This document shows positions 6,764-61,400 of a stretch of 64,000 bases of DNA, piece after piece; the first letter of the stretch is position 1, and every line of letters starts with the position of its first letter. Location: NCBI GenBank assembly GCA_964017185.1, contig OZ024869.1:5478501-5542500 (forward strand), given 5' to 3'. The stretch is from Rugalucina vietnamica. Its lineage: Eukaryota > Mollusca > Bivalvia > Lucinida > Lucinidae. The translations under genes were made by a program, and so were the position numbers. The notes beneath the pieces were generated by a model. It saw only the letters and a list, made by a program, of their open reading frames with translations. It did not search any database and was not told the DNA's origin.

Positions 6764-6885
6764 ACAAAAACATTGAGGAAAGGTTGGTGCCGCCAGATCA
6801 GCTGATGACGAGGCTACGTGGTCGTGTCAATCAGTACAAGTCCTGGAATGACAGCATCAAGGCTCTCAAGATGGCCGTCCTGAAT
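6764..6885 (+). CDS. MED1: MED1 exon A (first exon seen)
   Basis: Acceptor TTTTATTTTCAG and donor GTAAGT flank 122 bp. The exon enters with two bases of a split codon and leaves in phase 0. It encodes an N-terminal helix of the Med1 fold, including LMTRLRGRVNQYKSW and IKALKMAVLN, which aligns with the human LLERL...ETIKLVRQVME stretch. Confidence 0.9.
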
Positions 6886-9800
6886 GTAAGTCACACAGTC
6901 ACCTAGTGGCTAGTGATTGAATTTGTGATAACTTATCAACAATATTGAAGTGTTAACAAATCTTAACAAATTGGTTTAGACATTTGGTATTCTACATAAA
7001 TGTAGAATATGTGTGTACATGTGGTTTTGTCCCTTTGAACAGTAGCCTGGATAAAAGCTAAGGATGAACAGTTTAAGAGTCATTGTTTTTTGTTTTGTTT
7101 TTACAGTATTCTGGTGAATTGTATTTTACATGACAAGCGGCATTACTCTGATTGTATTTTACAGGACAAGTAGTATTACTCTGTATTTGACTGGACAAGC
7201 GGTATTACTCTGTATTTGACTGGACAAGAGGTATTACTCTGATTGTATTTTACAGGACAAGTGGTATTACTCTGTATTTGGCTGGACAAGCGGTATTACT
7301 CTGTGTTTGACTGGACAAGAGGTATTACTCTGATTGTATTTTACAGGACAAGTGGTATTACTCTGTATTTTACAGGACAAGTGGTATTACTCTGTATTTG
7401 ACTGGACAAGAGGTATTACTCTGATTGTATTTTACAGGACAAGAGGTATTACTCTGTATTTTACAGGACAAGTGGTATTACTCTGTATTTGACTGGACAA
7501 GAGGTATTACTCTGATTGTATTTTACAGGACAAGAGGTATCACTCTGTATTTTACAGGACAAGTGGTATTACTCTGTATTTGACTGGACAAGAGGTATTA
7601 CTCTGATTGTGTACTGTTTACAGGTCAAGAGGTATTACTCTGTATTTTATTTTACAGGACAAGCGGTATTACTCTGATGCCCTTGAGAAGACAAGCCTAC
7701 AGTCATGTCTAGATAAACTTCACAAAGCCATGAAAAGTAAGTCAACTCTTTGTATGTTTCGTAATTTTGCATTCGCATGAGAAAACCAACAATTTGTGTT
7801 TCCGACCAGGACCGACACAAACAGGTCTGTACAGTCACAGAAGAATGCTAGAAGCTTGAAATATTGGAATGAAGAAGGAGAGGGAATGTACTATCCATGT
7901 TGCGAAAACAAAGGCGCTGATCAGCTGTGCAGTTACTGCACAGCTGATCTGTGCCTTTGTTTTCACCTATGCATATTGCTGGTTTTCTGATGTGGCGGCT
8001 CAATTTTGGCTTAGATGTTGGTTCAAATTGTGAGCAAGATTTACTTGTAGAGATAATTGTTCAAAATATTCATTTGTGGGCGTATGTATGACAACTTGCA
8101 GCAGAGCTGTTTAACTTATTTTTGACCATATATGGGGTGATATACATGTACGCCCCTAACTAGGAATTTTGAATATGGTTATCTCCATTCTATTGCTTTA
8201 TAACTTTTAAAAAGAAGAGCAGTGATAATAACTTATAAACCAGCATTTTAACACAGTGCTGATTTGCATCAAGAATGTTTTCTCATCAAGCATGAAAATG
8301 AATTTATGTGTGGAACATACTGAGATAACCACGTGCCTTGGAACAAAAACCACGTGCCTTGGAACAACCAAAGCAGATAAAATCAATATACAGCTCTAGG
8401 ATGCAAATATCAGTGTGAGAACAACTTAAAATCAAAATGATCTGTAGTAAGTTGTTCCCTGTCATGTATATAATTCCTATTGTTGCTTACTGATTTCATC
8501 TGTGTTGGTTGTTCTCAGTTGCATTGGTTGTTTCTCGGTAACCTGTGCTAACTTGTGGTTTCACTTAATCTCAATTTAAATTGATGATATATGTATTTCT
8601 GTCTCTAGTTGTGAACCAGCAGTCATTGGTTGAACGCCTGGAAGTGATAGCTCGGCAGCTTGGAATGTCCTATACACCACCAACAGCGACTGAGAGCAGG
8701 CTATTCCTGAGTGCTGAGATGTTCATTGTGGAAATTCTGCCGGACGGTCATGGCGGCGTCAAGGATGTGAAAATAGGACATCATGACAGCTCTGTGGTAA
8801 GGGGCAAGGCTAACCATCGAAGTAGGCCACGTCTCCACGAACAATGTACCTTTGACGAAGATTCTTTGACACAGAAATTTTTGCAATGAGTTTGTGTTCA
8901 CACAGCAAAGATTACTTACACTACTTCGCTCGCTCACCTTTGTCACAGATATTTGACAATGAAATATCGCCACAGAATTGAGTTTACACAAGCATATTCT
9001 TCTAAACATACTTTGTCAAAGAAAAATTGTCCATGGGAACGAGGCTGTAGTTTTATTTATGAGCACGAACATTGCAGGCATGGTCTTTGGGTAGGCAAAA
9101 AGTCTGTCAGGCAACTTAAACACAAAGACAAATACATAAAAAAAGTAAAAGCAAAATAAACAGTGATCAAAAAGTGGAGTAAATTACCGAGTAATCAAAA
9201 CTAGAACTCACATATATACAGAATAAAAAAATTTGGTCTTGAAAACCAGGGGCCAATTGTTCAAAACTTTGTTAGCTTAACATCATTGTTAAGACCATAA
9301 CTCGTTAAGTTAATGCCGACTACATAAGCAAATACACTGTTATTTTTTGTTGATAAAATGTGACAATCCTTTGCATTGCAAAGGATTCGATTCTCACATT
9401 TTTTCAAAAAAAAAAAAAAAATAAATAAAAAAAAAAAAATAACAGTGTATTTGTAATATTGCCATTTGAAATTTTAGCGAATCTTTAACTAACGATGTCG
9501 TTAATTTTGAACAACTGGTTCCAGATGTGAAATAACCAAAGCAACAGATAAACATTCCATCATAAGAGCATTTGTCCAAAATTTTAAGTCTAGCTAGCAG
9601 GATAGACTGGTTGGAATAACGTAGCTTGTTATGAAGAAAAAATGATTATTTTTGCACTGTATTTCAGACATGTGAAGATCTTGTAGAAGTCTTACGGTAA
9701 GTCTTTCTCATATTTGAGCCTTTACATCTGAAAACCAACAATGTTGACACAAACCAGGCTGTACAGTCACTAAAGCTGGCCAGAAGCTTGAAATATTGGA

Positions 9801-12800: not shown

Positions 12801-15800
12801 AATCTGGTGGCCAAGTGGTAGAAGACGCAAGAACTCCAGAGCAATAGGACGTAGTGGCCTTGACCTTGACCAATACATTTTATGCTCTCCTGAGTATTGG
12901 TCAATTGGTCAACACCCAGAAAGAGGTTGCTGGGTCCTGACATGGCTGAAAAATTGTTGACTGGGACGTTAAGCCATAACCAAACCAAAATTTCTAAAGG
13001 TTCCTCTATTATTTAAATCCAAAATTGTAAGGCTCTAAAATAGTCCTGGCAGACTATAAATTGTCTTAAAACAACACAACATTTTATCTTTTTAATTGAA
13101 CATGCAAGTTGGTACATGTTAGTACTTGTTCATGCAAACATTGCTATGGATTTTAAATGTACATATATTTAGTTTCCTTAATCCAGTTCCTATCATGAAG
13201 ACATAAATTATGGATGCTTTATGGTTTAATAATAAAATTTTTGGGTGTGCTTTTTAAAATAAAATCAAAAGAGTTTGTATTGAATTTTTGAAATGTTCAT
13301 GAGAAATTGGTTTTCAATCAAATTTGTGAATTTGTTGCCTGCCCTCACAAAGTCAACATCATTCAAGATCACTAATAAAGAACTTACTATGGCTTTAGAC
13401 TGCATGAGTAGTCACTCGTGACCTTGCTTATAATTTCGAAATAGAAAAATCGCAAAATATGTCGCACACAAATTTCCAAATTTACAGACATTTTCAGTGT
13501 GTAAAAGCAAGAAATATGAGCGTCCGCATAAGAAAACCAAGAACATGCATAGGCGAAAGCAAAGCCGCAGATCAGCTGTGCAGTAATTGATCAGCGCCTT
13601 TGTTTTCGCTACACAGATAGTACAATGCCTATTCTTCATAAATCCGAAATTTCAAGCTTCTAGCCTGCTTTAGTGACTGTACAGGTCGGTGTGTGTCAGA
13701 CCTGGTGGAAACCAAAATCGTTGGTTTTCTCATGCGAAGGCACAATTAACATCTTTGACTATATATTTTGGCAGATTACGTCATTTAATTTTTCCTTGTT
13801 AGCTCACCTGAGCCGAAGGCTCACAGGTGAGCTAATAGTATACCCATGCTCCGTCGTCCGTCCGTCCGTCGTCCGTCCGTCGTTCACAATTTCAAAGATC
13901 TTCTCCTCTGAAACCGCTTGGCCAATCAAAGCCAAACTTCGTGTGGAGCATCCTTAGGAAGGGGGAACGAAAGTTTATATAAATGGTCCAGGTCACATGA
14001 CCAAGGTGGCCGCCATGGCTGTAAATAGCAAAAACCTTTAAAAATCTTCTTCTCCAGAACCAGTGGGCCGATTTCCACGAAACTTGGTATGTAGCATTGG
14101 GGACGTGGGCCCATCATAGTTTATATAAATTATGACCCTAGGATGACCTTGACCTATTTTACGGCAAGGTCAACTTAGGTCGCCAATGCATTTGAATGGG
14201 GAAAAAATGGTAAAATGCTATTTAATGGGTAAAACTTACTGGAAATAGGCAAATGGACAGAAGATTAATGTTAATGGAAAAATTTGGCCCCTGGGGGGTT
14301 GTCTGCCCCTGCCCCGGGGCTATATACATGTATATGACCATAATATTCAAACATCTTCTTCTCTGAAACCACTATGCCAATCAAAGCCAAACTTCATGTG
14401 GAGCATCCTTGGGAAGGGGGAATGAAAGTTTATATAAATGGTCAAGGTCACATGACCAAGATGGCCGCCATGGCTATAAATAGCAAAAACGTTTAAAAAT
14501 CTTCTTCTTCAGAACCAGAAGGCCTATGATTTTGAAACTTGGTGTGAAGCATCTGGGAATGGAGCTCTACAAAGTTTATATAAGTCATGACCCTGGGATG
14601 ACCTTGACCTATTTCACGGCAAGGACAACTTAGGTCTCCCATGCATTGGAATGGGAAAAAATAGGAATATGTAATTAAATGGCAGAAAACTTGCAGTTAA
14701 TTGGCAAATGGACTGAAATTTTATGATTTGAAAAAGACATTGACTCCAGGAGTTATTCTGCCCTGCCCTAGGGTTATATACATGCATTGTACCATTCTAG
14801 TCTAACAAGTTTATTGGTACATGTATATATCTCAGGTCTCAGGTGAGCGTTTACAGGACCATTGGTCCTCTGGTATTTTTTACAGGTCATCCTATGAAAC
14901 TGATATACTTTGTGTCTCCATATGATCTACTGTGTAAGAAGACCAAATCATCCTACCCAATGACACATGAAGGTAATATTCCCCGTCTCCTACTGATTTC
15001 TTATGTTAAACCCCACTATTTGCCTAATATTTCAAACAAATATACATGCATAGTAAAAGAATCTACAATCTTTTAATGAGGAATAAGTACAAAAGTATGA
15101 GATAGAATTAAAACTTTGGGACTAGTCTGAAAGCGTTCCACCCGATAGACGCTTTAGTGTTAATGCAGTCATTATCAAAATTTTTGGATTATTATCTCCC
15201 TTGCATTATACAAAGAAAGATTTTCTGACTTGAAATTCATAATTGCTGTGCATCAAGTTTGTGCTACTGTCCTTACAACATCTTTCAGAAACCACCTTTT
15301 TCAATACTTTTTCACACTTTTCTGAAACATCTAATGTAATGGTTATGTCACCCTTTTGTATTCCAAAAATGAGGCAAAAAGTTTGAAACTCGGTTTACAA
15401 ATAAATATTCATGAGAGAAAATTATTTTAATTGTAGGCCTTTTTCCAAGGCCTATTCCAGATAGTTTTTGGGCTTAAAATGTGTACAGATTTTTAGCTCA
15501 CCTGAGCCGAAGGCTCACAGGTGAGCTTATAGTATACCCATGCTCCGTCGTCCGTCCGTCGTCCGTCCGTCGTCCGTCCGTCGTCCACAATTTCAAAGAT
15601 CTTCTCCTCTGAAACCGCTTGGCCAATCAAAGCCAAACTTCATGTGGAGCATCCTTAGGAAGGGGGAACGAAATTTTATATAAATGGTCCAGGTCACATG
15701 ACCAAGATGGCCGCCATGGCTATAAATAGCAAAAACCTTTAAAAATCTTCTTCTCCAGAACCAGTAGGCCGATTTCCATGAAACTTGGTATGTAGCATTG

Positions 15801-18800
15801 GGGATGTGGGCCCATCATAGTTTTTATAAATCATGACCCTAGGATGACCTTGACCTATTTTACGGCAAGGTCAACTTAGGTCACCAATGCATTTGAATGG
15901 GAAAAAATGGTAAAATGCTATTTAATGGGTAAAACTAACTGGGAATAGGCAAATGGACAGAAGATTAATGTTAATGGAAAATTTTAGCCCCTGGGGGGTG
16001 TCTGCCCCTGCCCCAGGGCTATATACATGTATATTTCCATAATAATGAAACATCTTCTCCCCTGAAACCGCTTGGCCAATCAAAGCCAAACTTCATATGG
16101 AGCATCCTTGGAAAGGGGGAAAGAAAGTTTATATAAATGGTCAAGGTCACATGACCAAGATGGCTGCCATGGCTATAAATAGAAAAAAACCTTTAAAAAC
16201 CTTCTTCTCCAGAACCAGAAGGCCAATGATTTTGAAACTTGGTGTGAAGCATCAGTGACTGGAGCTCTACAAAGTTTATATAAATCATGACCCTGGGATG
16301 ACCTTGACCTATTATACGGCAAGGTCAACATAGGTCGCTCATGCATTTGAATGGGGAAAAGTGTTAAAATGTCATTTGTATGGAAAACCTTGCAGGAAAT
16401 GGGCATATGGACTTAATTTTTATGATTCTGAAAAAATTTGGACCCCAGGGGTCTGTCTGCCCCCACCCCGGGGCAATATACATGTATATTACAGTGATAT
16501 TCAAAGATCTTCTTCTCTGAAACTGCTTGGCCAATCAAAGCCAAACTTTATGAGGAGTATTGTTAGGAAGTGGGAATGAAAGTATATATAAATGGTCAAG
16601 GTCACATGACCAAGATGGCTGCCATGGCTATAAATAGCAGAAACCTTTAAAAATCTTTTTCTCCAGAACCAGAAGGTCTATGATTTTGAAACTTGGCATA
16701 AAGCATCAGGCAATGGAGCTCTACAAAGTTTATATGAATCGTGACCCTTGGGTGACCTTGACCTATTTTACGGCAAGGTCAACTTAGGTCGCCCATGCAT
16801 TTGAATGGGGAAAATTGTTAAAATGTCATTTGAAGGGCAAAACTTGCTGTAAATTGGCAAATGGACTAAAGTTTTATGTTTTCAAAAAGAAATTGACTCC
16901 AGGGGTTGCTCTGACCCGGCCCTGGGGTTATATACATGTATATTATCATTCTAGTCAAACAAGTTTATTGGTATATATCTCGGGTTTCAGGTGAGCGTTT
17001 ACAGGACCATTGGTCCTCTGGTCAAAATTTTTGTAGCAATTTTAGGACTTTAGAAATTCAAAAGGGTGACAGTCAGAAAGGACCTCAGCATATCTGTTCC
17101 TTGGAGGATAGCACGGGAACAGCGTGGATAGAAAGTATTTGTCTTTTTAAACTTCAAAAAATTCAACTGAAAAAAATCTTTTGTGTTTCAGCCATTACTG
17201 ACAATGATCTAGGTCACAGTGTAACAGTCTGCCTGGAACCTTGTGCTACCACCAATAAACTACAGACCATGCCCATGATTAGTGTCAAGACACATCATCA
17301 GGATGGCAAAAGGTACAGTATTAACAACAATAGTAACCTGTCTAATGGATTTCTGATCAGGTAAAATGCGATTGGGATGTAGTACAGGATTAGGGCGAAC
17401 ACATTATGCTGTCCAGCGCCTAAAGATAGCTAGTTTTTGGGCAGATCGGACTGGAACTCTGGTTGCCATGGCAACATATACGTTTTAATGGGAAAAAAAT
17501 CTTTTTCCTTGAAACCACAAGGCCCACTGTTTTGATATTTGGTATGTGGCTATGGCTAATGGTCCTCTACATAAATTGTGCCATTCATGCCCCTGGGGTC
17601 AAAGTTGGCCACACCCCAGGGGTCACTAGTCTCCATAGACTTACTACAGGAATACCTTCAAACATCAATATCTCAAAAGCCAATCAAATTACACACACAG
17701 CAGCACTTGGTAGTAGGAAAGGTTGCATATTGTTTTTGGACAGATCAGGCTGGAACTCTGGTTGCCAAGGCAACATATACATTTTAATGGAAAAAAAATC
17801 TCTGAAACCACAAGGCACACAGCTTTTGTTTTTATATGAAGCAGATTTCAGGTGAGCATTTACAGGACCATTGGTCCTCTGGTTTCTAGTTAAGGTGGTA
17901 TGCAGTATGCAATTTAGTGTTGTTCGATTATGGAATTTTCATAATAGATCATCGAAAATAATGAGACAGGCTTTTCCTCTGATCAATTATCGATTATAAT
18001 CGAAATGTGACCAATACTGTTTTCCTTTCACAGAACTGGGAAGAGTACTCTGCCAACATAATTAAATCTAAAAATACAATGTATGGAATAGGTGGGGTAA
18101 AATTGTGTATTAAATATGTATAAAGACTTTAAATGATTACATGCAACAGAGAGGACCTGCTATTTTAGCTACGTTTTTAAAAGAGAAAAACACTTAAATC
18201 AATGTATGAGAGTGAAATTTACTTCTAAAACAGTTCCGTTATAATGCGCTGGTCGGGGTTCACAAATTGCGAGCCTGTTATACGCAAGTCGCATAACGCT
18301 ATTCTACCAAATCCGACCAGACTGTACGCCGTTTCTATAGTTCGTTTGGATGGGGGAAAGTACCTCATTAAGAACAATAAAGAAACCATTTACCTCAAGA
18401 TCTTTGTACAGTGGAATAATAAATTGCAAGTTTGCATATTTTAACATTTTAATCCATTGAAAACACTCTATAAACGATAAAATTCATTTATTTGTGATGC
18501 ACTGTTGAAAACTGATTTTAAAGCGGAAACAGAAGAAAACACCGCTCATTTCACCCAGTGAAATATACCGGACAAAACCGGTACCGATTTTACTATAAAA
18601 ATTGCCAATTTCAGTCATGGATCATGTGCAAATACTTTATTTGAAGAGCTCGCTAAGATATGATGGTATCTCAATATTTTGGACTGTAATAATCGCGCGG
18701 CTGACACGAAAACATAGAGTAACGTCACGTGCCATGATGCTTCAAGCCTTGCTTTAACGGACATTTTCTGCGTTTTTGCATTGACAAGTGACAGCTAGAA

Positions 18801-21130: not shown

Positions 21131-24100
21131 CGCGTCGGCGTCCGCGTCCGCGTAGCTTCTTTCTTACGCGATATCTTTTGAACCAGTGGATGGATTTTGA
21201 CCAAACTTGCATAGATACATGGTTGGGAGGGGGGAAAGAGTTGATTAGATTTTGGTGACCTTGACCTCATTTTCAAGGTCACCAGCCCATGAAAACTGAT
21301 CAAATTAGGTTTTCTGACGCGATATCTTCTGAACAAATGAATGGATTTTGAGCAAACTTGCACAAGAGCATTGTTGGGAGGAGGCTCAGAGTTGATTAGA
21401 TTTTGGTGACCTTGACCTAATTTTCAAGGTCATGAGTCCATAAAAACTGTTGAAATTAGTCTTTCCAACTCAATATCTTGAAAACCAATTGATGGATTTT
21501 GACCAAACTTGCACAGAAGCATTGTTGGGAGGAGGCTCAGAGTTGATAAGATTTTGGTGACCTTGACCTAATTTTCAAGGTCACAAGTCCATAAAGAATG
21601 TTGAAATTAGTCTTTCCAATGCAATATCTTGTAAACCGATTGATGGATTTTGACTAAACTTGCACAGAAGCATTGTTGCGAGAAGGCTCAGAGTTGATTA
21701 GATTTTGGTGACCTTGACCTAATTTTCAAGGTCACGAGTCCATAAAAAATGTTGAAATTAGTCTTTCCAACGCAATATCTTATAAACCATTTGATGGATT
21801 TTGACCAAACTTGCACAGAAGCATTGTTGGGAGAAGGCTCAGAGTTGGTTAGATTTTGATGACCTTGACCTAATTCTGAAGGTCACGAGTCTATAAAACT
21901 GTTGAAATTAGTTTTTCCGATACGATATCTTGTAAACTAATGGATGGACTTTGACCAAACTTGCACAAAAGCATTGTTGGGAGGAGGCTCAGAGTTGATT
22001 AGATTTTGGTGACCTTGACCTAATTTTCAAGGTCACGAGTCCATAAAAACTGTTGAAATTAGTCTTTCCAATGCAATATCTTGTGAACCAAATGATGGTT
22101 TTTGACCAAACTTGCACAGAAGCATTGTTGGGAGGAGGCTCAGAGTTGATTAGATTTTGGTGACCTTGACAGAATTTTCAAGGTCACGAGTCCATAAAAA
22201 CTGTTGAAATTAGTCTTTCCAACTCAATATCTTGAAAACCAATAGATGGATTTTGACCAAACTTGCACAGAAGCATTGTTGCAAGAAGGCTCAGAGTTGA
22301 TTAGATTTTGGTGACCTTGATCTAATTTTCAAGGTCACGAGTCCATAAAAAATGTTGAAATTAGTCTTTCCAATGCAGTATCTTGTAAACCAATCGATGG
22401 ATTTTGACCAAACTTGCACAGAAGCATTGTTGGGAGGAGGCTCAGAGTTGATTATATTTTGGTGACCTTGACCTAATAATCAAGGTCACGAGTCCATAAA
22501 AAATGTTAAAATTAGTCTTTCCAACGCGATAACTTGTAAATGAATGGATGGATTTTGACCAAACTTGTACAGAAGCATTGTTGCGAGAAGGCGCAGAGTC
22601 GGCTAGATTTTGGTGACCTTGACCTAATTTTCAAGGTCACAAGTCCATAAAAAATGTTGAAATTAGTCTTTCCAACGCAGTATCTTGTAAATCAATTGAC
22701 AGATTTTGACCAAACTTGCACAGAAGCATTGTTGGGAGGAGGCTCAGAGTTGATTAGATTTTGGTGATCTTGACCTAATTTTCAAGGTCACGAGTCCATA
22801 AAAAATGTTGAAATTAATCTTTCCAACTCGATAACTTGTAAACCAATTGATGGATTTTGACCAAACTTGCACAGAAGCATTGTTGCGAGAAGGCTCAGAG
22901 TTGATTAGATTTCGGTGACCTTGACCTAATTTTCAAGGTCATGAGTCCATAAAAAAATGTTGAAATTAGTCTTTTCACTGCAATATCTTGTAAACCAGTT
23001 GATGGATTTTGACCAAACTTGCACAGAAGCATTGTTTGGAGGAGGCTCAAAGTTGATTAGATTTTGATTACCTTGACCTAATTTCCAAGGTCACGGGTCC
23101 ATAAAAACTGTTGAAATTAGTTTTTCCGATACGATATCTTGTAAACTAATTGATGGATTTTGACCAAACTTGCTCAGAAGCATTGTTGTGAGGAGGTTCA
23201 GAGTTTATAAGAATTTGGTGATTGTGACCCAATTTTAGACAGGGTCCAAAACAAGTTTAAACTATCACACCTTACATGGTGTCTTCCCTAGAAAAACTTC
23301 ATATCACAAGGTAACTACACTTCAATTACTAAACGGTTGGGGGGACATAGTTTTCCTCAGAAAACATTGTTTTAATTCTAAATCTGAAATTTCAAGCTTT
23401 TAGCTATTTTCTGTTGCTGTACAGCCTCGTTTGTGTCTGACCTGGTCGGAAACCTAGATGGTTGGTTGTCACAAGCAAAGGCTCATATTCGTTTTAACAT
23501 GCCATCATTAAAATGTTTAATATTGTAGACCCTTCCAGACCAGCAGCACATATATTACTTAAATGATCTCTCGGAGAGCTGTTTGGGCCAGCCAGGGGCT
23601 CTTGTTACCAAAATACCATTTACCCACCCCACTAGTGTAGCTAAAGTACTGAGCTTCCTGCGGCAGCAATTACTGTTTAACTGTGTCATACAGAGTTTGA
23701 TACGACCCCTGGCTAGTCACGGTAAGATTACCCCCTTTATTTGAGCTGCGACTTAAGAAAACAGGTCTTCGAGCTTATTGATCTGGTCTGACACAAACAT
23801 AAGAAAGGAGTGGCTTGAAATGTTGATTTAAGAAGAAGAGGTATAGTTACTGTACTTTCTGGGTAGTGAAAGCAATGGCGCTGATCAGCTGTGCAGTTAC
23901 TGCACAGCTGATCTGCACCTTCGTTTTTGCAAAGGCAAATGTTTTCTCAAGTTGGCCCATTTTTTGCTTGATTCAGTAGAACTTGAAAAAAACAATATCA
24001 AAACCCCTCAAAAGTGAATCTGTTTTGTTATGGATATGATTGGTTGATTGATAGCATCCAAGCTTGAAACCATGGACTTAAGTGGGAGCTTGTTTGTCAT

Positions 24101-42530: not shown

Positions 42531-44474
42531 TAGCTCACCTGAGCCATTAGGCTCACAAGGTGAGCTTATAGGATGGCCATGATCCGGCGTCCGTCCGTCG
42601 TCCACCATTTTCAAAGATCTTCTTCTCTGAAAGCGCTTAGCCAATCAAAGCCAAATTTTATTTGAAGCATCTATGGGAAGGGGGAACCAATGTGTTTATA
42701 AATAATCCAGGTCACATGACCAAGATGGCTGCCACGCCCATATATGGTAAAAACCCTTCAAAATTCTTCTTCTCCGGAACCACTGGACCGATTTCAACGA
42801 AACTTGGCATGAAGCATTGGGGACTAGAGTACTACAATGTCTTTATAAATTATGACCTTTGGATGACCTTGACCTATTTTACGGCAAGGTCAACATAGGT
42901 CGCCCATGCATTTGAATGGGGAAAATTGTTAAAATGTCATTTGAAAGGCAAATCTTGCAGGAAATGGGCAAATGGACTGAAGGTAGGTAATTCTGAAAAA
43001 AAATTGGACCCCAGTGGTTGGTCTGCCCCCACCTCGGGGCAATATACATGTTTATTACAAAAATATTCAAAGATCTTCTTCTCTGAAACCACTTGGCCAA
43101 TCAAAGCCCAATTTTATAGGAAGGATCTATGGGAAGGGGGAATCAATGTGTTTATAAATAATCCAGGTCACATGACCAAGATGGGTGCCATGCCCATATA
43201 TGGTAAAAACCCTTTAAAATTCTTCTTCTCCGGAACCTCTAGACCGATTTCAACGAAACTTGGCATGAAGCATCGGGGACTAGAGTACTACAATGTGTTT
43301 ATAAATTATGACCTTTGGATGACCTTAACCTATTTTACGACAAGGTCAACATAGGTCGCCCATGCATTTGAATGGGAAAAATTGTTAAAATGTCATTTGA
43401 AAGGCAAATCTTGCAGGAAATGGGCAAATGGACTGAAGGTAGGTAGTTCTGAAAAAAAATTGGACCCCAGGGGTTGGTCTGCCCCAACTCGGGGCAATAT
43501 ACGTGTATATTACAAAAATATTCAAAGATCTTCATCTCTTAAACCACATGGCCAATCAAAGCCCAATTTTATAGGAATCATCTATGGGAAGGGTGAATCA
43601 ATGTGTTTATAAATAATCCAGGTCACATGACCAAGATGGCCACCATGCCCATATATGGTAAAACCCTTTAAAATTCTTCTACTCCTGAACCAATGGACCG
43701 ATTTCAACGAAACATGGCATGAAGCATCGGGGACTAGAGTACTACAATGTGTTTATAAATTATGACCTTTGGATGACCTTGACCTATTTTACAGCAAGGT
43801 CAACATAGGTCGCCAATGCATTTGAATGGGGAAAACTTTTAAAATGTCATTTGAAAGTGAAAGTCTTGCAGGATACGGGCAGTAGGACTGAATATTAATG
43901 ATTCTGAAAAAAATTGGACCCCAGGGGCTCATTTGCCCAAGCCCCGGGGCAATATACATGTATATTACCATAATATTCAATATTCAAACATCTTGTCCTG
44001 TGAAACTGCATGGCCAATCAAAGCCAAATTTCATGTGAATCATCTATAGAATGGGGGAATCAATGTGTATGTAAATAATCAAGGTCACATGACCAATATG
44101 GCCGCCATGCCCATATATGGTATAAACCCTTCAAAAATCTTCTTCTCCAGAACCGGTGGATCGATTTCGAAGAAACTTGGCATGAAGCATCGATGACTCA
44201 AGTACTACAATGTATGTATAAACGATGACCCTGTGATGACCTTGACCTATTTTATGGCAAGGTCAACATGGGTTGCCTATGTATTTGAATGGGTAACCGT
44301 AAACTGTTAAAATGTCATTTGAAGGGAAAAACTTGTATGGACAGTATATTGATTATTCTGAGAAAAAAAAATGGACCAAGGGCTTCATCTGCCCCTATAC
44401 TGGGGCTATTTTCTATAACATTCGTATATTCAGCAGATCTCAGGTGAGCGTTTACAGGACCATTGGTCCTCTGG
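42531..44474 (+). mobile_element. AB1 element, copy 3
   Basis: Start AGCTCACCTGAGCCATTAGG with its complement, then CCGTCCGTCGTCC. About four units spaced 454-463 bp apart, measured at the GATGACCTTGACC motif. End CAGGTGAGCG and CATTGGTCCTCTGG. Confidence 0.85.
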
Positions 44475-48196: not shown

Positions 48197-50032
48197 ACAG
48201 CCCCGCTTTGAAAAAGTGGGGCTATACTGGATTCACCCTGTCCTTCCGTTGTTCCGTTATTCTGTTATTCCGTCCTTCCGTCCTTCCGCCATTCCATTGA
48301 GAACCAGTCGTTAGACTTTTACCAAATTTAGCATATGCATCAATATTGACAATATCTACTTACGTGTAAATGCATGTAATTTTCCCCAAATTTGCAATAG
48401 AATTATTGCCCTTCGATTGCCCTTCATTAATGCCAGAATTTCGTTCCGCTCAATATCTTGAGAACAAATTGACAGAATCTGATCAAATTTTGTATGCACA
48501 TCAACATTGACAAGATCTAGCTTGGGATTGTTGCCCATAAAATTTTGCAAAATTTTGATGGAGTTACGGCCCTTGATTGACGTCAGAATTTTATTTCCGC
48601 TCAATATCTCGAGAATGAATTGACAGAATCTGACCAAAATGTGTATGCACATCAACATTGACAAGATCTAGCTTGGGATTGTTGCCCGTCATTCTATGTT
48701 AAATTTTGATGGAGTTATGGCCCTTGATTGACTTCAGAATTTTGTTTTTGCTCAATATCTTAAGAATGAATTGACAGAATCTTACCAAGTTTTATATGCA
48801 CATCAACATTGACAAGATCTAGCTTGGGATTGTTGCGTGACATTTTTTTGCAAAATTTTGACGGAGTTACGGCCCTTGATTGACGTCAGAATTTACTTTC
48901 TGCTCAATATCTTGAGAACAAATTGACAAAATTTATCCAAAATTTGTATGCACATCAACATTGACAAGATCTAGCTTGGGATTGTTGCCTGTCAATTTTG
49001 ACGGAGTTACGGCCCTTGATTGCGGTCAAAATTTTGTTTCCGCTCAATATCTTGAGAATCGACAGAATCTAACCAAATTTTGTATGCACATCATTGCCCG
49101 TCATTTTTTGCCAAAATTTGACAGAGTTAAGGCCCTTAATTGATGTCAGAACTTTGTTTCCGCTCAATATCTTGAGAAGGAATTGACAGAATCTAACCAA
49201 ATTTTGTATGCACATCAACATTGACAAGATCTAGCTTGGGATTGTTGCCCGTCATTCTATGTTAAATTTTGATGGAGTTATGGCCCTTGATTGACTTCAG
49301 AATTTTGTTTTTGCTCAATATCTTAAGAATGAATTGACAGAATCTTACCAAGTTTTATATGCACATCAACATTGACAAGATCTAGCTTGGGATTGTTGCG
49401 TGACATTTTTTTGCAAAATTTTGACGGAGTTACGGCCCTTGATTGACGTCAGAATTTACTTTCTGCTCAATATCTTGAGAACAAATTGACAAAATTTATC
49501 CAAAATTTGTATGCACATCAACATTGACAAGATCTAGCTTGGGATTGTTGCCTGTCAATTTTGACGGAGTTACGGCCCTTGATTGCGGTCAAAATTTTGT
49601 TTCCGCTCAATATCTTGAGAATCGACAGAATCTAACCAAATTTTGTATGCACATCATTGCCCGTCATTTTTTGCCAAAATTTGACAGAGTTAAGGCCCTT
49701 AATTGATGTCAGAACTTTGTTTCCGCTCAATATCTTGAGAAGGAATTGACAGAATCTAACCAAATTTTGTATGCACATCAACATTGACAAGATCTAGCTT
49801 GGGATTGTTGCCCGTCATTTTTTGCCAAAATTTGACAGAGTTAAGGCCCTTGATTGATGTCAGAACTTCGTTTCAGCTCAATATCTTAAGAACGAATTGG
49901 GGGAATCTTACCATTTTTTACCTGCATCAACATTAACAAAATCTACCTTGGGATTGTTACCTGTCATTGTTTTTCTCACCCTGGAAAAAAGCTCAGAAGC
50001 GGGGCTATAGTCAGATCCTCTGACAGTTCTAG
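48197..50032 (+). mobile_element. AB4 array-bearing element
   Basis: Start hairpin AGCCCCGCTTT/AAAGTGGGGCT, then TTCCGTTGTTCCGTTATTCT microsatellite. Units of 151-152 bp carry ACATTGACAAGATCTAGCTT and GGAGTTACGGCCCTTGATTG. Near the end is AGAAGCGGGGCTATAG, then hairpin TCAGATCCTCTGA and terminal CTAG at 50029-50032 before TTTT. It splits MITE-P copy 29. Confidence 0.86.
48644..49817 (+). repeat. 563-bp tandem duplication inside AB4
   Basis: 48644-49254 and 49207-49817 match base for base by eye, offset by 563 bp. Other AB4 units differ from each other by 10-20 per cent. This is a recent duplication, or an assembly artefact. Confidence 0.85.
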
Positions 50033-58401: not shown

Positions 58402-61400
58402 CAAGGTGAGCTTATAGGATGGCCATGATCCGGCGTCCGTCCGTCCGTCCGTCGTCCGTCGTCCGTCCGTCGTCCACAATTTCAAAGATCTTCTTCTCTG
58501 AAACCCCTTGGCCGATCTTGTTGAAATTTTATGTGGAGCCTCCTTGGGTAGTGGCATTTCAAGTTTGATCGCGAAATCCAGGTCACTTGACCAAGATGGC
58601 CGCCACGCCCATATATGGTAAAAACCCTTCAAAAATCTTCTTCTCCAGAACCGGTGGGCCGATTTCCACGAAACTTGGTATGTAGCATCAATGACCTCAG
58701 CCCATCATAGTTTGATAAAATGATGACCCTTGGATGACCTTGACCTATTTTACGGCAAGGTCAAATTTGGAAACATAGGCTTTTACATGGGAAAAAGTGA
58801 AAACTATGGATTTTTTGAAAACTATTGCAGCCTGAGGCCTGAAAAGTGGTAGATGCAAACAACTAATGGTGTAGATGAAGGTATGTGATTAATATAGGTC
58901 AAGGTCATATCTTGACCTTGGCCAGTCTGTTGTCCATACACACTTTTCAAAGATCTTCTTCTCTGAAACTGCTTGGCCAATCAAAGTGAAATTTTATTTG
59001 GAGCATCCATGGGTAGGGGAGACGAAAGTTTGATCGCGAAATCCAGGTCACATGACCAAGATGGCGGCCACGCCCATATATGATAAAAACCACTCAAAAA
59101 TCTTCTTCTCCAGAACCGGTGGGCCGATTTCCACGAAACTTGGTATGTAGCATCAAGGACCTCAGCCGATCATAGTTTGATAAAATGATGACCCTTGGAT
59201 GACCTTGACCTATTTTACGGCAAGGTCAAATTTGGAAACATAGGCTTTTACATAGGAAAAAGTGAAAACTATGGATTTTTTGAAAACTATTGCAGCCTGA
59301 GGCCTGAAAAGTGGTAGATGCAAACAACTTATGGAGTAGATGAAGGTATGTGATTAATATAGGTCAAGGGCATCTCTTGACCTTGGCCAGTCTGTTGTCC
59401 ATACACACTTTACAAAGATCTTCTTCTCTGAAACTGCACGGCCAATCAAAGTGAAATTTTATGTGGAGCATCCATGGGTAGGGGAGACAAAGTTTGATCG
59501 CGAAATCCAGGTCACATGACCAAGATGGCCGCCACGCCCATATATGGTAAAAACCACTCAAAAATCTTCTTTTCCAGAACTGGTGGGCCGATTTCCACGA
59601 AACTTGGTATGTAGCATCAAGCACCTCAGCCCATCATAGTTTGATAAAATGATGACCCTTGGATGACCTTGACCTATTTTACAGCAAGGTCAAATTTGGA
59701 AACATAGGCTTTTACATAGGAAAAAGTGAAAACTATGGAATTTTTTGAAAACTGTTGCAGCCTGAGGCCTGAAAAGTGGTAGATGCAAACAACTTATGGA
59801 GTAGATGAAGGTATGTGATTAATATAGGTCAAGGTCATCTCTTGACCTTGGCCAGTCTGTTGTCCATACACTCTTTTCAAAGATCTTCTCTGAAATTTTA
59901 TGTGGAGCATCCATGGGTAGGGGAGACGAAAGTTTGATCGAGAAATACAGGTCACATGACCAAGATGGCCGCCACGCCCATATATGGTAAAAACCACTCA
60001 AAATCTTCTTCTCCAGAACTGGCTGGCCGATTTCCACGAAACTTGGTATGTAGCATCAATGACCTCAGCCCATCATAGTTTGATAAAATGATGACCCTTG
60101 GATGACCTTGACCTATTTTACGGCAAGGTCAAATTTGGAAACATTGGCTTTTACATAGGAAAAAGTGAAAACTATGGATTTTTTGAAAACTATTGCAGCC
60201 TGAGGCCTGAAAAGTGGTAGATGCAAACAACTAATGGAGTAGATGAAGGTATGTGATTAATATAGGTCAAGGTCATCTCTTGGCCTTGGCCAGTCTGTTG
60301 TCCATACACACTTTACAAAGATCTTCTTCTCTGAAACTGCTTGGCAAATCAAAGTGAAATTTTATGTGGAGCATCCATGGGTAGGGGAGACGAAAGTTTG
60401 ATCGCGAAATCTAGGTCACATGACCAAGATGGCCGCCACGCCCATATATGGTTAAAACCACTCGAAAAATCTTCTTCTCCAGAACTGGTGGGCCGATTTC
60501 CACGAAACTTTGTATGTAGCATCGAGGACCTCAGCCCATCATAGTTTGATAAAATGATGACCCTTGGATGACCTTGACCTATTTTACGACAAGGTCAAAT
60601 TTGGAAACATAGGCTTTTACATAGGTAAAAGTGAAAACTATGGATTTTTTGAAAACTATTGCAGCCTGAGGCCTGAAAAGTGGTAGATGCAAACAACTAA
60701 TGGAGTAGATGAAGGTATGTGTTTAATATAGGTCAAGGTCATCTCTTGACCTTGGCCAGTCTGTTGTCCATACACACTTTTCAAAGATCTTCTTCTCTGA
60801 AACTGCTTGGCAAATCAAAGTGAAATTTTATGTGGAGCATCCATGGGTAGGGGAGACAAAAGTTTGATCGCGAAATCCAGGTCACATGACCAAGATGGCC
60901 GCCACGCCCATATTTGGTAAAAACCTTTCAAAAATCTTCTTCTCCAGAACTGGCAGGCCAATTTTCATGAAACTTGGTATGTAGCATTTGGGACTCCAGC
61001 CCATCATAGTTTGTTGAAATGATGACCCTATGATGACCTTGACCTATTTTACGGCAAGGTCAATTTTGGAAACATAGGCTTTCACATGGGAAAAGGCGAA
61101 AGCAAACTGTTGCAGCCTGAGACCTGAAAGTTGCTAGATGCAGACAACTAATGGTGTCAATGAAGGTAAGTAATTAATGAAGGCCAAGGTCATGTCTTGA
61201 CCTTGGCCCAAGGTCATTTAAATATCAAAATTAAAATTATGGTTTTCTCAGAAATCACTGGGTTTGGAAACTATTGCAGCCTGAGACCTGAAACTTTGCA
61301 GATGCAGACAACTTATGAAGTGAATAAAGGTGTGTGAGTATTCAAGGTCAAGGTCATTTCATTATGACTTAATACTCCAAGATCAGGCTTCAGGTGAGCG

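Follow-up and report, generated by a model that had tools for sequence, protein, structure and literature searches.

The closest described relatives of the array reported here are the "mirage" minisatellites of amphioxus, known from Adh3 and from the globin genes BflGb6 and BflGb9 (PMC3087553). As described there, these are minisatellite-like repeats that span an intron/exon boundary, as do the arrays found here in MED1 and CCT3; like those of the present genome, they affect both 3′ and 5′ borders at several loci and retain AG or GT signals in many units. Unit lengths are comparable, at 10–72 bp (Adh3) and 150–160 bp (globins) in amphioxus and 29–37, 101, and 178 bp here. The present case differs in its gene (MED1), its 17 units, and its 1.09-Gb genome, and whereas splicing and length variation were examined in the amphioxus mirages (PMC3087553), the MED1 array is known here from one assembly and one haplotype. 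Part of the amphioxus description is that normal splicing goes on unimpaired and that array length is unstable, between haplotypes or somatically (PMC3087553).

Several other systems offer partial parallels. The human ABCA7 intron-18 VNTR is a 25-bp minisatellite whose length correlates with expression and exon 19 skipping; it lies flush with an exon and includes its splice site, as the MED1 array does, and a repeat-borne cryptic donor retains one 25-bp unit out of frame (PMC5954066). Unlike the MED1 array, it is on the donor side and begins at the GT, its length effects have been measured, and the published description of the repeat, so far as it bears on this point, includes no exon copy (PMC5954066). 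Human tandem repeats at exon–intron borders, which average ~30 bp in one study, share the border location and altered splicing but involve recently duplicated paralogs and transcripts of altered structure, so that the likeness is one of description (PMC2812944). The FAM20C VNTR is a further relative (PMC5941971). In a Drosophila case of intron gain or shift, tandem duplication affected coding sequence close to a splice site and left one copy intronic, as in MED1, although the outcome there was a new intron position, while in MED1 the position is kept and only the 3′ border is multiplied (PMC2891723). Border arrays as a kind are already in print with the amphioxus mirages (PMC3087553), and we make no claim that they are unpublished outside amphioxus; the addition made here is their recurrence in this genome.

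A multiplied 3′ border in MED1

The window, meaning the whole 64-kb stretch of DNA analysed, contains a gene that the first-pass annotation named MED1, an assignment borne out by sequence matches. Translation of the exons at 6764–6885, 7658–7736, and 8609–8796 (+ strand) yields a protein with matches to the Pfam Med1 domain (E 6.9e-11) and, in the PDB, to two MED1 chains (E 7e-13 and 1.4e-12), both of which we take to be mammalian. The exon that precedes the affected intron (DKNIEERLVPPDQ...KALKMAVLN, 6764–6885), which aligns with these chains, ends in phase 0 and is followed by a GTAAGT donor at 6886. Sequence reading likewise places a GTAAGT donor at 7737, directly after the 79-nt exon DKRYYSDALEKTSLQSCLDKLHKAMK (7658–7736), and the next exon, IVNQQSLVERLEVIARQLGM... 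(8609–8796), carries the Pfam Med1 match and yielded no local copies. The PDB chains align across the phase-0 junction (...KMAVLN/DKRYYSD...), with EKR opposite DKR; this protein is two residues longer than the chains just before the junction, and over the first seven residues of the exon (DKRYYSD) it is identical to them at K and R only.

The intron ahead of this exon contains a border minisatellite (7120–7657, + strand) of 17 units, each composed of the intron end joined to the first 19–21 nt of exon 7658–7736. Run on the window, TRF reports an array at 7120–7676 with a 29-bp period (18.1 copies, 81% match) and also with a 91-bp period (6.0 copies, 94% match). Searching both strands of the window with the first 19 nt of the exon, GACAAGCGGTATTACTCTG, and allowing up to 4 substitutions, recovered 18 matches (the 17 units and the exon itself), all inside 7132–7676, while the opposite strand gave none. 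Both analyses uphold the initial count of 17 tandem near-copies ahead of the exon, and reading the units one by one agrees that the real exon is itself the last unit of the array.

Divergence between the units and the exon is low (18 of 323 positions, over 17 × 19) and is dominated by a single site with eight C-to-A and six C-to-T changes. Most units are 29 or 33 bp long, the others 34 or 37 bp, and three main kinds of linker occur among the 17: ATTGTATTTTACAG exactly in five units, TATTTGACTG in five, and TATTTTACAG in three, the remaining four being further variants seen once each. The 33-bp units remain exon-like for 21 nt (GACAAGCGGTATTACTCTGAT) before passing into intron-like linker, which places the breakpoint inside the exon. 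Fifteen of the units (2–16) form five triplets in a 91-bp register starting at 7165, 7256, 7347, 7438, and 7529. Triplets 1–4 are mutually identical at 85–90 of 91 positions, whereas the fifth agrees with the others at 77–83 of 91 in ungapped comparison, owing to an insertion towards its end. Units 16 and 17 carry linkers that no other unit shares, and unit 1 has changes peculiar to it. Ahead of the first complete unit, a 13-nt stretch at 7118–7130 (+ strand), ATTGTATTTTACA, matches the 33-bp linker at 13 of 13 positions and is the remnant of a further unit; its alignment score of 26 was reached by none of just under 2000 random window segments.

A dispersed repeat or transposon was considered and set aside, since a genome search that skipped very common words placed the array at one location in the 1.09 Gb, a genome about twice the size of that of amphioxus. 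In genome searches whose best candidates were scored, the array, the Med1 domain, and the MED1 exons all led to this one gene, with no second MED1 copy among the scored candidates. Viral and prokaryotic contig collections, where few relatives are to be expected, gave none of the MED1 stretch by tblastn.

Decoy acceptors, reading frames, and the choice of splice site

The initial estimate that about eight units keep the motif TTTTACAG/GACAAG proves exact. These eight decoy acceptors lie within 7157–7557 (+ strand), with the acceptor G at 7164, 7255, 7346, 7375, 7437, 7466, 7528, and 7557, and each leads to a premature stop. A ninth, altered decoy, GTTTACAG/GTCAAG (7606–7623, + strand), has its G at 7623, 34 nt ahead of the exon. 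The remaining eight of the 17 units have no AG at the border, seven ending in CTG and the first in CAT, a loss that approximately two independent changes would account for.

Splicing to any decoy is predicted to ruin the frame, as the first-pass annotation had proposed. Frame reading over 7062–7631 took all 40 upstream AGs in that range to a stop before the exon end, and therefore 7657 is the only acceptor among those tested that gives MED1. Reading on from the last decoy (7623) leads to a TGA at 7675, soon after the true exon start, as had been stated. The nearest in-frame stop 5′ of the exon is a TGA at 7604. Skipping the exon would also shift the frame, as it is 79 nt long, and exons begun at upstream acceptors would measure 113 to 630 nt. 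This frame trap needs no special design: the 33-bp unit has a TGA in one frame, and the 91-bp triplets rotate it through all three. The units also differ from a tandem duplication of the kind that yields mutually exclusive exons, in that they hold 19–21 nt of the exon without its own donor and every tested decoy AG is non-productive.

The further idea that the cell faces many nearly identical acceptors holds for the near-copies of the border, but the sites are not quite equivalent, as the true acceptor has a longer T-rich tract than the decoys. Scored with a rough acceptor matrix, 7657 is the best AG in the intron (8.48), that at 7106 the second-best (8.27), and the other border AGs range from 6.5 to 3.1, the lowest being the ninth decoy (3.06). 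With the same rough matrix, the MED1 exons before and after this one have acceptors that score 1.43 and 0.13. The true 3′ splice site region (7632–7657, + strand) combines the lengthened T-rich tract with CAG, and candidate branch-point adenines for it are 7637 (UUAC, 20 nt) and 7620 (UUUAC, 37 nt). AG-free zones before the border AGs span 19–27 nt (24 nt before 7657), so short that the branch point has to be provided by each unit itself. The second-best AG ends a T-rich tract plus CAG located before the array (7083–7106, + strand) and followed by TATTCTGG, where the frame stops after 8 codons, at 7131; this stretch may represent the polypyrimidine tract and acceptor of the ancestral intron. 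For AG-independent introns, the first AG past the branch point is described as the 3′ site, with AGs within ~12–15 nt of the branch point open to bypass (PMC1431707). Both the strength of the AG at 7106, close to that of the true site in the rough matrix (8.27 vs 8.48), and a simple rule of scanning to the first AG, which would favour upstream sites, weigh against the choice of 7657.

Exon copies in CCT3, AP-2 alpha, and other genes

Comparable arrays occur elsewhere in the genome. The first was met on contig C8 during a search of chaperonin exons for reference splice sites, which gave tandem matches within one gene; this gene is CCT3 (TCP-1 gamma) by its best PDB match (E 1.1e-53), and its region was read as a 32-kb stretch joined from five pieces. 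At C8:61639494–61640640 (loci L038 and L041), the 3′ splice site of an exon is repeated in a 101-bp unit that provides nine acceptors, with the real exon last. All eight decoys stop after 15 codons, and the array is broken by an insertion of ~330 bp. At C8:61644564–61645927 (L039), it is a 5′ splice site that is multiplied, in a 178-bp unit present 7.7 times with eight donors, the real one first, and the copies are 92–94% identical to the exon end. The 3′ array has the architecture of the MED1 array and the 5′ array is its mirror image; the exon parts of both are well conserved relative to the PDB chain. A third CCT3 repeat (C8:61636713–61637110, L038:1214–1611) comprises 2.8 copies of a 144-bp unit containing a whole exon, whose copies have AG and GT at their borders and might be usable as alternative exons. 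Near C8:61648223, the peptide LEVIPRTLIQN occurs twice in one open stretch of CCT3, a further partial exon duplication.

In the AP-2 alpha region (C10:12624–12630 kb), local copies were found at three of the four sampled exons, the exception being L073: L072 has an array on its donor side (186 bp × 2.8), L074 a copied acceptor that forms a decoy, and L076 an internal copy. The gene was identified at L072, with L074 and L076 assigned by position.

In a survey, each conserved exon was searched against its flanking DNA (750 bp on either side, same strand; blastn E ≤ 1e-4, ≥75% identity, ≥20 nt), and a case was counted where the copied stretch included 18 nt or more of HMM-matched coding sequence. 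Local copies of coding sequence were found at 10 of 63 sampled loci, from three families in one genome: four of 28 for TCP1, three of 23 for class-I tRNA synthetases, and three of 12 for adaptins, the latter two families having been chosen after the first CCT3 sighting. Same-sized flanking segments, unscreened for exons or dispersed repeats, had a local copy in 28 of 126 cases. An earlier run, in which flanks reached at most 1.5 kb and no coding sequence was required in the copy, had given 6/30 TCP1 loci (4/28 after merging) against 43/120 controls, and 4/23 synthetase loci against 35/92 controls. Copies of exons are thus rarer than copies of flanking sequence, yet exons are far from spared.

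Read by eye, the copies fall at 3′ borders in TCP-1 alpha (L019), a tRNA synthetase (L049), and AP-2 alpha (L074), and at 5′ borders in CCT3 (L023), a synthetase (L054), and AP-2 alpha (L072), with one whole-exon copy (L028) and internal pieces at three loci (L015, L046, and L076). The case at L046, one of the ten, is a 24-nt exon-internal copy accompanied by a longer match that is probably a dispersed repeat, and the matches at L061 look like dispersed repeats and were not counted. Two TCP1 loci (L029 and L030) were dropped as part of the same array as L028, and 27 of 57 TCP1 rows were given no locus; L014 and L033 share one open stretch and may be a single exon. Among the adaptin rows, 24 of 36 were dropped, the first being a single 1440-bp match and the seventh lying in L066, without a copy. 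The adaptin exon copies at L066 were also left uncounted, as diverged exons kilobases apart without a border array. Here three diverged versions of one adaptin exon (C13:11421171, 11423414, and 11426838) lie 2–3 kb apart, each open over the match, and could be old alternative exons; one has a 61-nt, 75% match beside it.

This recurrence, together with the published amphioxus mirages (PMC3087553), runs counter to the initial view that it is unusual for coding sequence to seed an array of this kind.

Origin of the arrays

We consider it very probable that the MED1 array is a mirage-type minisatellite, in which an intron/exon border was duplicated locally in tandem, so that its copies came to lie within that same intron. 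The unit spans the authentic boundary in all 17 cases (linker plus 19–21 nt of exon) and is minisatellite-sized (29, 33, 34, or 37 bp, with 91-bp triplets), and the AG is kept in 9 of 17 upstream units (many, not all). Pairwise comparison of triplets and linkers finds the inner units homogenised with the boundary units left out. More than one locus and both border types are affected, as seen in the CCT3 3′ and 5′ arrays and the AP-2 alpha 5′ array. The array fits the mirage description in every structural feature tested.

In this scenario, a short piece comprising the 3′ intron end and the first ~21 nt of the next MED1 exon would have been duplicated in tandem and then expanded by slippage or unequal exchange, latterly as 91-bp triplets, and the array may be unstable in length. 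As the 3′-most unit alone continues into the remainder of the exon, this last unit would stay the real exon start while the others lie inside the intron and would be spliced away. Each AG-bearing unit comes close to a complete 3′ splice site, because the exon-derived TATTAC and the linker TTTTAC can serve the next AG as a branch point and short tract. The last acceptor would usually be preferred, favoured by the strongest tract near the exon and by pairing with the intact donor at 7737 through exon definition, and decoy use would presumably yield a premature-stop mRNA subject to nonsense-mediated decay.

One alternative is that the array is a regulatory device, its decoys yielding non-productive mRNA that tunes the level of MED1, with copy number under selection. 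The uniformly non-productive outcome of the 40 tested decoys and the full border motif kept in eight units are in keeping with this, and human intronic VNTRs are reported to be able to alter splicing, in TERT and in ABCA7 (for ABCA7, PMC5954066). A repeat with a shifting frame and an in-unit stop gives the same outcome without selection, however, and the AG losses in 8/17 units through about two changes show, in our reading, no sign of keeping or purging. Similar arrays also occur in unrelated housekeeping genes (CCT3 and AP-2 alpha), as a mutational process predicts, and we judge the regulatory reading improbable.

Two observations support the direction from exon to array: the PDB alignment continues across the exon start, pairing DKR with EKR, and CCT3 of this genome points the same way. 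The exon start is weakly conserved relative to the PDB MED1 chains, and the suggested direction therefore rests partly on the CCT3 analogy. The reverse order, in which an ordinary intronic repeat came first and its last unit was captured as the MED1 exon start, making the first codons repeat-derived, finds some support in the sparse identity over DKRYYSD (K and R only) and in the two extra residues just before the junction. Seven captured codons should nevertheless have added about seven residues, while the alignment is longer by only two, and in CCT3 the repeats contain coding sequence that is strongly conserved (PVDINNREEMMKI vs PVDVNNREMMLSI), so that the exon clearly seeded that array. We regard the reverse order as quite improbable for MED1. 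An assembly artefact is highly improbable: misassembly is a known risk at tandem repeats, and one aberrantly assembled allele appears in the amphioxus mirage paper (PMC3087553), but the ordered variants among units, the regular triplet pattern, the chromosome-sized contig (C1, 102 Mb), and similar arrays at other loci all speak against it.

As duplicated borders, the arrays offer a test of how one acceptor is selected by the splicing machinery from a row of near-identical neighbours. Within this one genome the real site is the last unit at 3′ borders and the first at 5′ borders, and these two layouts place opposite demands on a first-site rule. The arrays also show concretely how tandem duplication could lead to splicing variation and new introns in a genome other than amphioxus, and they could mislead gene-prediction programs. 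Their occurrence in genes expected to be essential (MED1, CCT3, and AP-2 alpha) means that tolerance of them must be high. It is possible, though on balance we lean slightly against it, that local duplication of short DNA stretches is frequent in this lineage, exons included, leaving a genome littered with exon-border arrays, perhaps a source of decoys, length-dependent splicing variation between individuals, and in time new introns. Such a genome would be a "mirage genome" in an animal other than amphioxus.

Tandem arrays of other kinds are also present. Dispersed arrays with 454–466-bp units (TTCAAAGATCTTCT...CCAAGATGGC) occur in the window at 13891–14784, 15592–16945, 42610–44335, and 58480–61208, as well as on C8 near 61651910; most are preceded by short TCCGTC-type repeats, and they look like a mobile element carrying tandem repeats. 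Arrays with a 151-bp unit lie at 21158–23236 (13.8 copies) and 48419–50015 of the window.
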